Assembly: GCA_902595535.1 (NCBI GenBank)
Contig: CACJQI010000005.1
Location: forward strand, 1 to 64,000
Source: an uncultured Pelagibacteraceae bacterium
GTDB lineage: Bacteria; Pseudomonadota; Alphaproteobacteria; Pelagibacterales; Pelagibacteraceae
DNA length: 64,000 nt
Direction: 5' to 3'
Part shown: positions 30,934-33,942 of the stretch, one piece after another
Layout of the letters: every line of letters begins with the position of its first letter
How positions within the stretch are numbered: position 1 is the first letter of the stretch
Position numbers and translations under genes: made by a program
Notes under the pieces: model-generated
Seen by the model: the letters and a program-made list of their open reading frames with translations, nothing else
Told to the model about the DNA's origin: nothing
Databases searched by the model: none

Positions 30934-31965
30934 ATGTACAGTCAGAATAGTCATTTAAATTATCAACTGAAGATTTGGTTATTTTTATTATTAGGGTTAG
31001 TTATTTTGATAATTCTTGTTGGTGGATTAACTAGACTAACAGATTCAGGTTTATCAATTACAACATGGGAATTATTTGTGGGTCTTGTACCTCCACTATC
31101 TAATGAAAAATGGATTAATTATTTTAATCTTTATAAAACAATACCAGAATTTAGTGAACAAAATTTTAATATGACATTAAATGAATTTAAAGTAATTTTT
31201 TGGTGGGAGTGGATTCATAGACAATTAGGAAGATTAATTGGATTAACTGTATTGCTGCCATTAATTTATTTTACAATTAAACATGGTTTATGGATTCTAA
31301 GAAGATATGGAATAATTTTTATACTAGTTTGTTTTCAAGGGTTTATAGGATGGTATATGGTTTCAAGTGGTTTAATAGATCGAGTTGATGTTAGCCATTA
31401 CAGGTTATCATTACATTTAGTTACTGCTTTCATTATATTATCAGTGATATTTTGGAAAATTCTTCAAATCAAAAATATACAAAAAACTGAAATTTTAGTT
31501 AGATTAAATCTCATTAAGTTTTTTCTTTTACTATTATTTTTACAATTAATAATTGGTGCATTTGTATCAGGTATGGATGCTGGTACTATTTATAATACAT
31601 GGCCTTTAATGGGAACTTCATATTTCCCTGACGATAGTAGAATATTGGAATTTTTAAATATTTCTTTTTTTGATAATCCATCCATAGTTCAATTTATTCA
31701 TAGAAACTTGGCTTATTTAATTGTTATAATTTATTTCTATTTATTATTTCAAGTTATTAAAGAAAATGATAAAATATTCATAAAACCAATTTTATTAATT
31801 GGTGTAAGTCTTTTGTTACAAGTTATTTTAGGTGTGATGACGCTTTTATCTGGAGTAAAAATTACCTATGCATCTTTACACCAGATAAATTCAATTTTTA
31901 TTATACTAACAACTCTATATTTTCTTTATATTTCTAAATATAAAAAATTAACCAACAGCTTTTAA
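30934..31965 (+). CDS. ctaA: Haem A synthase (CtaA/COX15)
   Basis: Oxidises haem O to haem A for aa3-type cytochrome oxidase. 343 residues, about 8 transmembrane helices. The haem-ligand histidines are visible in WEWIHRQLGRLIG, HYRLSLHLVTAF, FIHRNLAYLIV and SLHQINSIF. N-terminal GGLTRLTDSGLSITTWE is the family signature. Its end overlaps the convergent metY by 18 bases. Confidence 0.95.
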   Translation: MYSQNSHLNYQLKIWLFLLLGLVILIILVGGLTRLTDSGLSITTWELFVGLVPPLSNEKWINYFNLYKTIPEFSEQNFNMTLNEFKVIFWWEWIHRQLGRLIGLTVLLPLIYFTIKHGLWILRRYGIIFILVCFQGFIGWYMVSSGLIDRVDVSHYRLSLHLVTAFIILSVIFWKILQIKNIQKTEILVRLNLIKFFLLLLFLQLIIGAFVSGMDAGTIYNTWPLMGTSYFPDDSRILEFLNISFFDNPSIVQFIHRNLAYLIVIIYFYLLFQVIKENDKIFIKPILLIGVSLLLQVILGVMTLLSGVKITYASLHQINSIFIILTTLYFLYISKYKKLTNSF

Positions 31966-33276
31966 ATTAGTTTTTGAAGATTTATTCAAAGCTTGATCTA
32001 AATCATCAATAATATCATCAATGTGTTCAATACCTATACAAAGTCTGACATAACTTTGAGTAACACCTGACGCTGCTAATTCTTTTTCATTTAATTGACT
32101 ATGAGTAGTACTTGCAGGGTGAATTGCTAAACTTCTAGCATCACCAATGTTTGCAACATGGTAAAACATTTTTAAAGACTCAATAAACTTTTTACCAGCT
32201 TCAATACCACCTTTTAATTCGATACCTACCATTGGTCCATTTCCACCTTTAAGATATTTAGAAGCTCTATCAGCTATTGTTTTTTCATGCTCTGTCGAAT
32301 AAATTACCCTTGTTACTTCATCATGTGTTTTTAAGAAATTAACTACTTTTTGAGCATTTTCACAATGTTGTTTCATTCTAAGAGCAACAGTTTCGAGACC
32401 TTGAATAATGGTAAAAGCATTATCTGGAGCAAGTGCTGAACCTAAATCTCTTAATAAACAAACTCTTGCTCTAACAGCAAAAGGTATGTTTGCCCCAGTT
32501 AATTCTGGAACAATTTTTCCCCAAATAGCACCACCATAACTTGCGTCAGCTTCGTTAAATAATGGTTGTCTTTTTGGATCAGCTGTCCAATCAAAATTTC
32601 CACTATCAACAATACTCCCAGCTACAGCAGTTCCATGTCCACCTATATATTTTGTTAAAGAATGAATTACTATAGCCGCACCATGTTCAATTGGTTTACA
32701 AATAACAGGAGAAGCTGTGTTATCCATAATTAATGGAATATTATATTTTCTACCTATATCAGAAACCTCTTTAATCGGAAAAACTCTTAAATAAGGATTT
32801 GGTAATGTTTCACCATAAAAAGCTCTAGTTTTATCATCAACCAATTTTTCAAAATTTTTAGGGTCACTTGGGTCTGCATATCTTATTTCAATTCCTAATT
32901 TGCTTAACGTATGATTGAACAAAGATACTGTTCCACCGTATAGATCAGTTGAACTAATGATATTATCTCCTGCTTGAGCTACATTTAAAATTGCAAATGT
33001 AGAAGCAGTTTGACCCGAAGATACAGTTAGACATGCCAAACCACCTTCTAATGCTGCAACTCTTTTCTCTAATGCATCATTAGTTGGATTCATTATTCTT
33101 GTATAAATATTTCCAAACTCCTTTAATGCAAAAAGATTAGCTGCATGTTCTGTGTTAGCAAACTCATAAGATGTTGTTCTATATATTGGTACTGCAACAG
33201 CATTAGTTGTTGGATCGCTTCTGTAATCACCACCGTGAATAGCAATTGTCTCTGGGTTGTTACGTTTTGTACTCAT
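31948..33276 (-). CDS. metY: O-acetylhomoserine sulfhydrylase
   Basis: PLP enzyme making homocysteine (or methionine) from O-acetylhomoserine and a sulfur donor. 442 residues, full length: N-terminal ETIAIHGGDYRSDPTTNAVAVPIYRTTSY, YTRIMNPTNDALEKRVAALEGG, PLP-lysine segment IHSLTKYIGGHGTAVAG and C-terminal SYVRLCIGIEHIDDII. The strong AAGGAG ribosome-binding site sits at the end of a SAM-V-type aptamer, with a SAM-II-type aptamer before it, so SAM feedback control is expected. Confidence 0.96.
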   Translation of the reverse strand: MSTKRNNPETIAIHGGDYRSDPTTNAVAVPIYRTTSYEFANTEHAANLFALKEFGNIYTRIMNPTNDALEKRVAALEGGLACLTVSSGQTASTFAILNVAQAGDNIISSTDLYGGTVSLFNHTLSKLGIEIRYADPSDPKNFEKLVDDKTRAFYGETLPNPYLRVFPIKEVSDIGRKYNIPLIMDNTASPVICKPIEHGAAIVIHSLTKYIGGHGTAVAGSIVDSGNFDWTADPKRQPLFNEADASYGGAIWGKIVPELTGANIPFAVRARVCLLRDLGSALAPDNAFTIIQGLETVALRMKQHCENAQKVVNFLKTHDEVTRVIYSTEHEKTIADRASKYLKGGNGPMVGIELKGGIEAGKKFIESLKMFYHVANIGDARSLAIHPASTTHSQLNEKELAASGVTQSYVRLCIGIEHIDDIIDDLDQALNKSSKTNLKAVG

Positions 33277-33278
33277 TT

Positions 33279-33339
33279 TAACTCCTTTTTTAGTGCTTTA
33301 ACTTTATGTAAGGCGCACAATACAGTTCAAATGCCTACC
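33279..33339 (-). ncRNA. SAM-V riboswitch upstream of metY
   Basis: On the minus strand the leader just before metY has the SAM-V pattern: GUAGGCAUUUGAACUGUAUU, then GUGC GCCUUAC, then AAAGUUAAAGCAC, ending in UAAAAAAGGAGUU. Two pairings fit: GUA-GGC with GCC-U-UAC, and a pseudoknot GUGC with GCAC. The AAGGAG ribosome-binding site lies inside the 3' end, 5 bases before ATG, so SAM binding should hide it and block translation. SAM-V is known in front of metY in Pelagibacter; I recognise the sequence from that class. Confidence 0.9.
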
Positions 33340-33355
33340 GATTATGTTTTGAAAA

Positions 33356-33402
33356 TTCCTTTTTAGCAGTTTTACGCCCGCAATAGGATCAAATCGGCTT
33401 TT
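33356..33402 (-). ncRNA. SAM-II-like riboswitch, first of a tandem pair
   Basis: Upstream of the SAM-V element the minus strand reads AAGCCGAUUUGAUCCUAUUG, CGGGCGUAAAACU, GCUAAAAAGGAA. This matches the SAM-II layout: a P1 stem (GCC/GGC), the conserved GAUUUGA loop start, UUGC, a GUUAAA-like GUAAAA, then GCUAAAAAGG. P1 is short. Only about 17 bases separate it from SAM-V. A tandem SAM-II/SAM-V leader is described for Pelagibacter metY, with SAM-II proposed to act on transcription. I see no strong terminator stem between the two. Confidence 0.75.
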
Positions 33403-33445
33403 ACTTTTTATCAGATTAGACTTGTTTTACAAGGCAAATATCAAA

Positions 33446-33483: not shown

Positions 33484-33942
33484 ATGACTAAATTTGTAAA
33501 AAAAGACCAATTAAACTCATCATGGTATGAAATAGATGCAACAAATGCTGTTGTTGGAAGACTAGCTACAGTTGTTTCTAAGATTATTAGAGGAAAAAAC
33601 AAAACTACTTATACACCTCATATGGATCATGGAGATTTTGTTGTAGTAAAAAATATTGAACAAGCAAAGTTTACTGGTAAAAAATTTCAAGACAAAAAAT
33701 ATTATAGACACACAGGTCATCCAGGTGGGATTAAAGTTGCAACACCTGAAAAATTACATGAAAAAAAACCAGGTGAAACTCTAAAACTTGCTGTAAAAAG
33801 AATGTTGCCAGGTGGTGTATTAGGAAGAAAACAATTAACTAAACTTAAAATTTATTCTGGTAATGACCACCCTCATTCAGCTCAAAATCCTCAAGTGATT
33901 GAACTTGATAAATTAAATAGCAAAAATCTAGTAAGAAATTAA
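33484..33942 (+). CDS. rplM: 50S ribosomal protein L13
   Basis: 152 residues, full length. Conserved core: WYEIDATNAVVGRLATVVSKI, GDFVVVKNIEQAKFTGKK, YYRHTGHPGG, and VKRMLPGGVLGRKQLTKLKIY with GNDHPHSAQ. Followed after one base by rpsI, the universal pair. Confidence 0.97.
   Translation: MTKFVKKDQLNSSWYEIDATNAVVGRLATVVSKIIRGKNKTTYTPHMDHGDFVVVKNIEQAKFTGKKFQDKKYYRHTGHPGGIKVATPEKLHEKKPGETLKLAVKRMLPGGVLGRKQLTKLKIYSGNDHPHSAQNPQVIELDKLNSKNLVRN

Follow-up and report, generated by a model that had tools for sequence, protein, structure and literature searches.

How does a SAM-binding element act when it lies upstream of a second one and is followed by no terminator? The question is raised by the leader of metY in an uncultured Pelagibacteraceae bacterium (GenBank assembly GCA_902595535.1), where it lies on the minus strand between the divergent genes rplM and metY. 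We analyzed positions 1 to 64,000 of contig CACJQI010000005.1, a stretch that we call the window. A first-pass annotation, made from the letters of the DNA alone, had placed two SAM elements back to back before metY without naming the strand. Both are present, on the minus strand, and there is indeed a gap between them, although it measures 19 nt up to P1 of the second element (33355-33337) rather than the 17 or so that had been estimated. We refer to the first element as E1; all features are collected in Table 1.

Table 1. Features of the metY leader and its surroundings, numbered by position in the window
Feature	Positions	Strand	Remarks
rplM	33484-33942	+	TIGR01066
Predicted extended -10 promoter (TGA TAAAAA)	33405-33413	-	Inferred from motifs at fixed positions; predicted transcription start near 33398
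E1, compact SAM-II-like H-type pseudoknot	33356-33399	-	R1 model 70.1 bits, E 3.7e-15
E1 P1 5' strand GCC	33396-33398	-	Pairs with 33376-33378; paired in 42/42 rows
Alternative helix 5' strand GCCGAUU	33392-33398	-	Start of E1; G-U closing pair; excludes P1 and the third strand
E1 third strand U U U	33391-33393	-	Equivalents of SAM-V U8 U9 U10; invariant in 47/47 rows
E1 P2 5' strand (UCC, then UUGC plus G)	33379-33388	-	Pairs with 33357-33369
E1 P1 3' strand GGC	33376-33378	-	Partner of 33396-33398
E1 P2 3' strand (C, bulge, GCUAAA, GGA)	33357-33369	-	Pocket bases U A A A at 33365-33362
Linker strand AAUCGGU	33337-33343	-	Directly abuts SAM-V P1 (33336-33333)
SAM-V aptamer	33279-33345	-	RF01826 81.7 bits, cut-off 41, E 6.4e-12; first positions overlap the linker
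SAM-V P1	33336-33333	-	Linker strand adjoins
metY Shine-Dalgarno core GGAG	33282-33285	-	At SAM-V 3' end; read from the sequence
metY (O-acetylhomoserine aminocarboxypropyltransferase)	31948-33276	-	TIGR01326 567.1 bits, cut-off 495.1

A standard SAM-V aptamer and a divergent element upstream

By its sequence the second element is a full, standard SAM-V aptamer, and the window copy is predicted to bind SAM. It is the only RF01826 match at E ≤ 1 in its own genome. In an alignment of 47 rows, P1, P2 and P3 of SAM-V are paired in 98.9, 100 and 79.4% of cells, and changes on both sides of the helix are seen in all three, while the outermost P3 pair is open in 29 of the rows. The first-pass annotation had the element ending in the metY ribosome-binding site, and GGAG does lie at its 3' end (33285-33282), ahead of the metY AUG at 33276. 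The metY SAM-V of Pelagibacter binds SAM, and its published model is occlusion of the Shine-Dalgarno sequence (PMC6061858).

The first element is harder to classify. The first-pass annotation had proposed a covariance-model search for both elements, and the outcome was divided: SAM-V was recovered at 81.7 bits, but E1 scored below the cut-off with both SAM-II models, RF01726 (17.9 bits, cut-off 44) and RF00521 (12.0 bits, cut-off 36), and also with RF01826 (18.0 bits). When RF01726 was run over the bacterium's own genome, E1 came eighth in a list of 15 sub-threshold matches. The top match (32.9 bits, C3:77709-77768) is a canonical SAM-II before a gene that we labeled metX-like by eye; this locus (L044, C3:77705-77779), in which the 3' end of P2 enters a U-tract, is itself below the Rfam cut-off. 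On the Rfam evidence alone, E1 would be unproven and would fail the check that the first-pass annotation had set for it. The cut-off is nevertheless an unfair and insensitive test, because the bhmT SAM-II of HTCC1062 fails it too: a search of that leader with the Rfam SAM-II models up to E 5 gave no match, although this aptamer has a Kd of 1.2 µM as cited in PMC5069961 and is treated in the literature as experimentally validated. Of 20 SAR11 leaders, that of HTCC1062 bhmT among them, 14 reached the Rfam gathering cut-off with SAM-V and none did so with SAM-II.

We measured E1 with two further models. R1 is an E1 model built from homologous leaders, and since the window copy is one of its 42 rows, the R1 score in Table 1 is in part built in; with R1 the SAM-V aptamer next to it scores 14.2 bits. 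R1 also matches some canonical SAM-II aptamers, with 24.8 bits for L050 (E 8.9e-5), 22.6 for L093, 18.7 for L138 and 15.0 for the metX SAM-II of the same genome (L044, E 0.02), where SAM-V copies in that scan reached at most 14.8 bits; no R1 match was reported for the bhmT SAM-II of HTCC1062 (L041). The second model is a sequence profile made from 33 terminator-type SAM-II aptamers of SAR11, with no E1-type element included. Its single match in the 64-kb window is E1 (33362-33398, 13.5 bits, E 0.0039), aligned across positions 3-46 of 52. The profile finds E1 weakly, ranking it third in its own genome (E 0.084) and detecting 3 of 19 further E1 loci when E ≤ 1 is allowed; a stretch of the same genome, C5:111012-111042 on the minus strand, scores 15.6 bits.

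Kinship judged by sequence alone is thus weak. E1 belongs to the SAM-II/SAM-V group, and it resembles a SAM-II that is short in L3 and is missing the outer pairs of P1. Like SAM-II/SAM_alpha (RF01726, RF00521), it has a pseudoknot layout, a GAUUU..AUUGC..GCUAAA core and no P3; it differs in the absent outer P1 pairs, an L3 about 6 nt shorter, scores below the Rfam cut-offs and the lack of a classical expression platform. With SAM-V (RF01826; 6FZ0, PMC6061858) it has the pocket bases UUU, UU, G and UAAA in common, whereas it lacks P3, has a lower P2 of 2 bp plus a third pair over a bulge, and has a short L3; moreover, in the window no start codon stands directly behind the GGA of E1. We conclude that E1 is real, although standard Rfam searches miss it.

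E1 among relatives and its conserved pocket

An order-wide search found SAM-V in 190 of 397 genomes. We examined the 150 best-scoring places, which have metY and mmuM among their genes: E1 precedes SAM-V in 120, a canonical SAM-II plus terminator in 29, and the only locus outside both patterns is truncated where its contig stops, though E1 can still be seen there. The first 130 loci had given the impression that SAM-V is never alone. This was refuted by 19 weaker SAM-V loci, read by eye in genomes chosen mainly for the absence of an E1 match, of which 10 carry a SAM-II with its terminator, while in the other 9 SAM-V is the sole element ahead of metY. These lone, divergent copies (L364, L367, L372-L375 and L377-L379) are from other Pelagibacter genomes, and 8 of the 9 score above the SAM-V cut-off.

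R1 has a match at E ≤ 0.01 in 178 of the 397 genomes of the order, the weaker matches including canonical SAM-II. In a sample of the class, R1 reaches E ≤ 1e-4 in 6 of 385 genomes, and 3 of these 6 fall outside the order (32-34 bits; L345 is one such locus). The exact E1 pattern occurs in at least 120 stretches of genome_contigs, which overlap with the genomes of the order-wide set, and all 80 titles among the matches listed are Pelagibacteraceae, Pelagibacterales or Pelagibacter. For the 118 stretches that are uncut, a motif test assigned 116 to metY or mmuM and left 2 uncalled; SAM-V is present in 115, and the 3 without it are mmuM leaders. The final set holds 137 E1 loci, namely 103 metY leaders with SAM-V, 29 mmuM leaders with SAM-V and 5 mmuM leaders without it (L182, L184, L186, L187 and L221). 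The exact pattern had no match in viral_contigs. One viral-listed contig end (L141, IMGVR_UViG_3300020474_000285) has a single 39-residue match that is 97% identical to the MetY of the window, and may be host DNA.

Several related leaders depart from this picture. In another genus, a metY leader (L191, G388:C10) combines a short-P1, E1-like aptamer with a terminator-like stem (CCGCC..GGCGG plus a U-tract) and a SAM-V of 63.1 bits, and may stand midway between the two kinds of tandem. In other genera of the family, four metX-like loci (L194, L195, L198 and L203) have a compact SAM-II-like element and then a hairpin beside the AUG with no clear U-tract, for example AAAUCGC AAA GCGAUUU, and this hairpin is in part complementary to L1; the genes and hairpins were assigned by eye, and these are perhaps translational SAM-II elements. 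In genus g3, L204 and L208 have a SAM-II-like element before a methyltransferase-like gene that by eye resembles metW.

P1 of SAM-II is usually about 5 bp long. It has that length in the 33 canonical SAM-II aptamers, while in E1 it is below normal, at 3 bp (GCC/GGC, with pairing kept in every one of 42 rows), so that the first-pass annotation was right to call it short. P2 is made up of UCC/GGA, UU/AA and GC/GC, with a third pair over a one-base bulge. In SAM-V, U8, U9 and U10 line the ligand site (ligand-site numbering from PMC6061858). The ten E1 equivalents of SAM-V U8, U9, U10, U19, U20, G21, U47, A48, A49 and A50 do not vary in any of the 47 rows, and the motifs that bear the pocket, AUUU, AUUGC and GCUAAA, are kept in all 137 E1 loci, the selecting pattern having allowed up to two mismatches in its first part and up to one in GCUAAA. 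Given these pocket-like bases, E1 is probably a SAM aptamer.

Compensatory changes are few but present in both helices. The third pair of lower P2 (33379/33369, alignment columns 22-33) is G-C in 31 of 42 rows, U-A in 5, A-U in 3 and unpaired in 3; a pair of upper P2 (columns 12-45) is U-A in 34, A-U in 4 and other in 4. P1 is G-C in 41 rows and A-U in one, the mmuM leader of HTCC1062 (L043), where both sides have changed to give ACC/GGU. The covariation score of the whole structure is 0.090, a value that none of 500 shuffles reached (mean 0.040), but the structure slid by +1 still scores 0.061. The count of pairs changed on both sides (3) was matched by 245 of the 500 shuffles, and kinship among the rows raises such counts. 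An extra pair, 11-46, was rejected, being unpaired in 37 of 42 rows.

The same data bear on a different reading of E1, namely that it is a decayed SAM-II that has lost SAM binding and is kept merely as the sequence at which the transcript starts. A short P1 and sub-cut-off Rfam scores are what decay might leave, and the SAM-II of the bhmT tandem is reported to be inactive in the full-length RNA (PMC11508383). The invariant pocket equivalents, the compensatory changes in P1 and P2 and the retention of E1 on its own before mmuM all argue against decay, which we consider improbable.

E1 does appear to lie at the very start of the transcript. Among 96 unique metY upstreams, 78 have a TGNTAW whose first base is 15 or 16 nt ahead of P1, and in 35 metY upstreams the motif is seen at offset 45, too; over 33 unique mmuM upstreams there are 29 matches to TATAW 12-15 nt before P1. 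The 78 and the 29 are raw counts over loci related by descent, and a scan for TATAAT (5 of 6) found 25 in 129 upstreams where shuffles gave 24.7. From these fixed-position motifs, the mRNA probably begins no more than a base or two away from the first base of E1. If the predicted start is right, E1 occupies the first 45 nt or so of the transcript, which would account for the short P1.

A linker complement in place of a terminator

Tandem SAM-II/SAM-V leaders are known. One review counts 149 and states that in the original 120 the SAM-II always lies before a terminator (PMC9481103). In alphaproteobacteria SAM-II has been named as controlling metX, metY and metA (PMC4239095), and divergent variants of SAM-II are on record (PMC2864571). 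For HTCC1062, a tandem is described at bhmT, and in the accessible text metY and mmuM are both listed with SAM-V only (PMC5069961, PMC2704228). We found E1 in both of these HTCC1062 leaders, at 63.0 bits for metY and 52.2 bits for mmuM with R1. The genome (G011) was taken as HTCC1062 by its SAM-V copies at 1127359, 1005818 and 732787, which fall within the intergenic regions given for bhmT, metY and mmuM in Table 1 of PMC2704228.

The first-pass annotation assigned the window leader to this established class, in which SAM-II ends transcription and SAM-V blocks translation. Such tandems are published and make up 29 of the best 150 SAM-V loci. A pattern scan for intrinsic terminators found no site in the window leader, in agreement with the earlier remark that no clear terminator stem is seen; furthermore, a U7 tract occurs in none of the 120 E1 loci, as against 28 of the 29 classical SAM-II loci. 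On these counts E1 leaders lack an intrinsic terminator, and the dual transcription/translation reading is very improbable. What E1 leaders have in place of a terminator is a linker complementary to the first aptamer, so the metY type differs in architecture from the published bi-mechanism tandem.

The two types do share features. The bhmT-type tandem (PMC9481103, PMC11508383) likewise has a SAM-II-type aptamer, then SAM-V, then a methionine gene, and in it too a linker opposes the SAM-II fold, as reported by SHAPE, and in vitro keeps this domain blocked (PMC11508383). The bhmT leader (L041) differs in that its P1 is GCGC, its terminator stem comes with a U-tract, and one of its loops can pair with the 3' strand of P2 (GCUAAAGCG). 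In the metY/mmuM type, P1 measures 3 bp, a terminator is absent, and the linker complements the 5' strand plus L1. Our literature search found no terminator-free first element at metY or mmuM; most subscription papers, as well as the founding SAM-V paper (Poiata 2009), were outside its coverage, and the novelty of the arrangement is provisional.

Evidence for the linker helix comes from conservation and co-occurrence in related genomes. Of the best 150 loci, 115 of the 120 with E1 have UCGG or UUGG no more than 9 nt ahead of the SAM-V core, versus 0 of the 29 with a terminator. In mmuM linkers UCGG is found in 2 of 34, and 29 of 34 instead carry AUCAA, complementary to UUGAU of E1 L1; metY and mmuM linkers thus differ in sequence, yet in the partition function both pair with the E1 5' strand. 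In a pseudoknot-free calculation, at least 4 linker/E1 5' strand pairs are expected in all 137 loci, with means for the three classes of 8.3-8.9 pairs versus 3.7-4.0 when the linkers are shuffled. In alignment A1, 91.8% of cells in the helix can pair, versus at most 46.5% when it is slid; two-sided covariation was seen in 0 of its 7 pairs, and column shuffles do as well. As a side observation, the linkers of three lone-E1 leaders (L184, L186 and L187) carry GAUCAAAU, the exact complement of AUUUGAUC in E1.

Energy calculations gave a more mixed result. For the first 60 of the 103 metY loci, the duplex of the linker with the 5' segment of E1 has an energy of -9.9 kcal/mol, as against -1.9 to -3.3 elsewhere, and the difference is less distinct for mmuM leaders with SAM-V (-7.1 versus -3.2 to -6.0). 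A dinucleotide-shuffle test of the duplexes was weak, with p ≤ 0.05 for 40 of 90 metY, 6 of 17 mmuM and 4 of 5 lone-E1 unique linkers and p 0.17 for the window, perhaps because the shuffles tend to preserve CGG. The minimum free energy of E1 plus linker in the window is -15.7 kcal/mol with the linker helix included (z -1.93, a modest value), and that of the whole leader is unremarkable (z -0.62). By eye, no downstream partner for a freed linker was seen.

The complement might instead be an operator, since ACCGATT...AATCGGT is an inverted repeat in the DNA as well and need not form an RNA helix. The spacing between the GCUAAA of E1 and the core of SAM-V varies from 23 to 33 nt in the 110 loci measured, and the mmuM linkers pair with the E1 5' strand in spite of their different sequence; we therefore give the operator very little credence.

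Proposed mechanism and its consequences

The first-pass annotation left the first element's mode of action open, and we agree; the mechanism that follows, with its exchange of two folds and its OFF effect of bound E1, is one that we infer. We think it somewhat probable that the metY leader is a terminator-less E1 switch and a translational SAM-V in tandem, with linker exchange governing E1. The metY mRNA would open with two SAM aptamers, E1 and then SAM-V, and SAM-bound SAM-V would hide the Shine-Dalgarno sequence. Without SAM, the AAUCGGU linker would pair with GCCGAUU of E1, destroying P1 and removing the third strand of the pocket; if SAM were bound during transcription, E1 would be locked and the linker free. 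Bound E1 would then be an OFF state, the freed linker acting on SAM-V folding, on mRNA abundance, or on both. Since all 137 E1 loci stand ahead of metY or mmuM, both of them genes for making methionine, bound E1 should lower expression.

In metY the linker helix ends where P1 of SAM-V begins (33337/33336), which suggests that the two are coupled. A stacking link to SAM-V may not be general, because the complement in mmuM linkers is mostly AU-rich and lies apart from SAM-V. The mmuM leaders, and the five in which E1 stands alone, would require an effect that does not need SAM-V, such as one on mRNA stability, and the leaders lacking SAM-V hint that E1 may be able to work by itself as well.

An alternative reading is that E1 is a SAM aptamer that works on mRNA abundance only: when bound, it would leave the AU-rich linker unpaired and open to RNase E or Rho, independently of SAM-V. 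Under sulfur limitation in HTCC1062, metY mRNA rises 7.14-fold and mmuM mRNA 6.08-fold, while MetY protein rises 2.24-fold (PMC5069961); a purely translational SAM-V gives no direct prediction of such a rise in mRNA. The 5 of 137 loci with E1 and no SAM-V, all before mmuM, and the absence of a terminator fit this reading as well. However, the mRNA induction could come about through translation-coupled decay instead, by which SAM-V alone can shift the mRNA level, and the UCGGU strand of metY abuts P1 of SAM-V, suggesting a link with it. We regard an action on mRNA abundance alone as rather unlikely.

Starting from the tandem with linker exchange, we put forward a broader proposal tentatively. 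E1 may represent a SAM-II-like switch at the mRNA 5' end that uses neither a terminator nor a Shine-Dalgarno sequence, its platform being a linker that pairs with the 5' strand of the aptamer itself; it would work alone before mmuM and coupled to SAM-V before metY, and could give a steeper or two-level response to SAM across Pelagibacter.

Bacteria of the SAR11 group, which are very abundant in the ocean, carry many RNA switches at their methionine genes. If the mechanism is true, the metY and mmuM leaders that have been described as single SAM-V leaders would be two-sensor leaders in most of the loci sampled. A mode of action that requires no terminator would be added for SAM-II-type aptamers, and two-sensor leaders could explain why both mRNA and protein rise under sulfur limitation.
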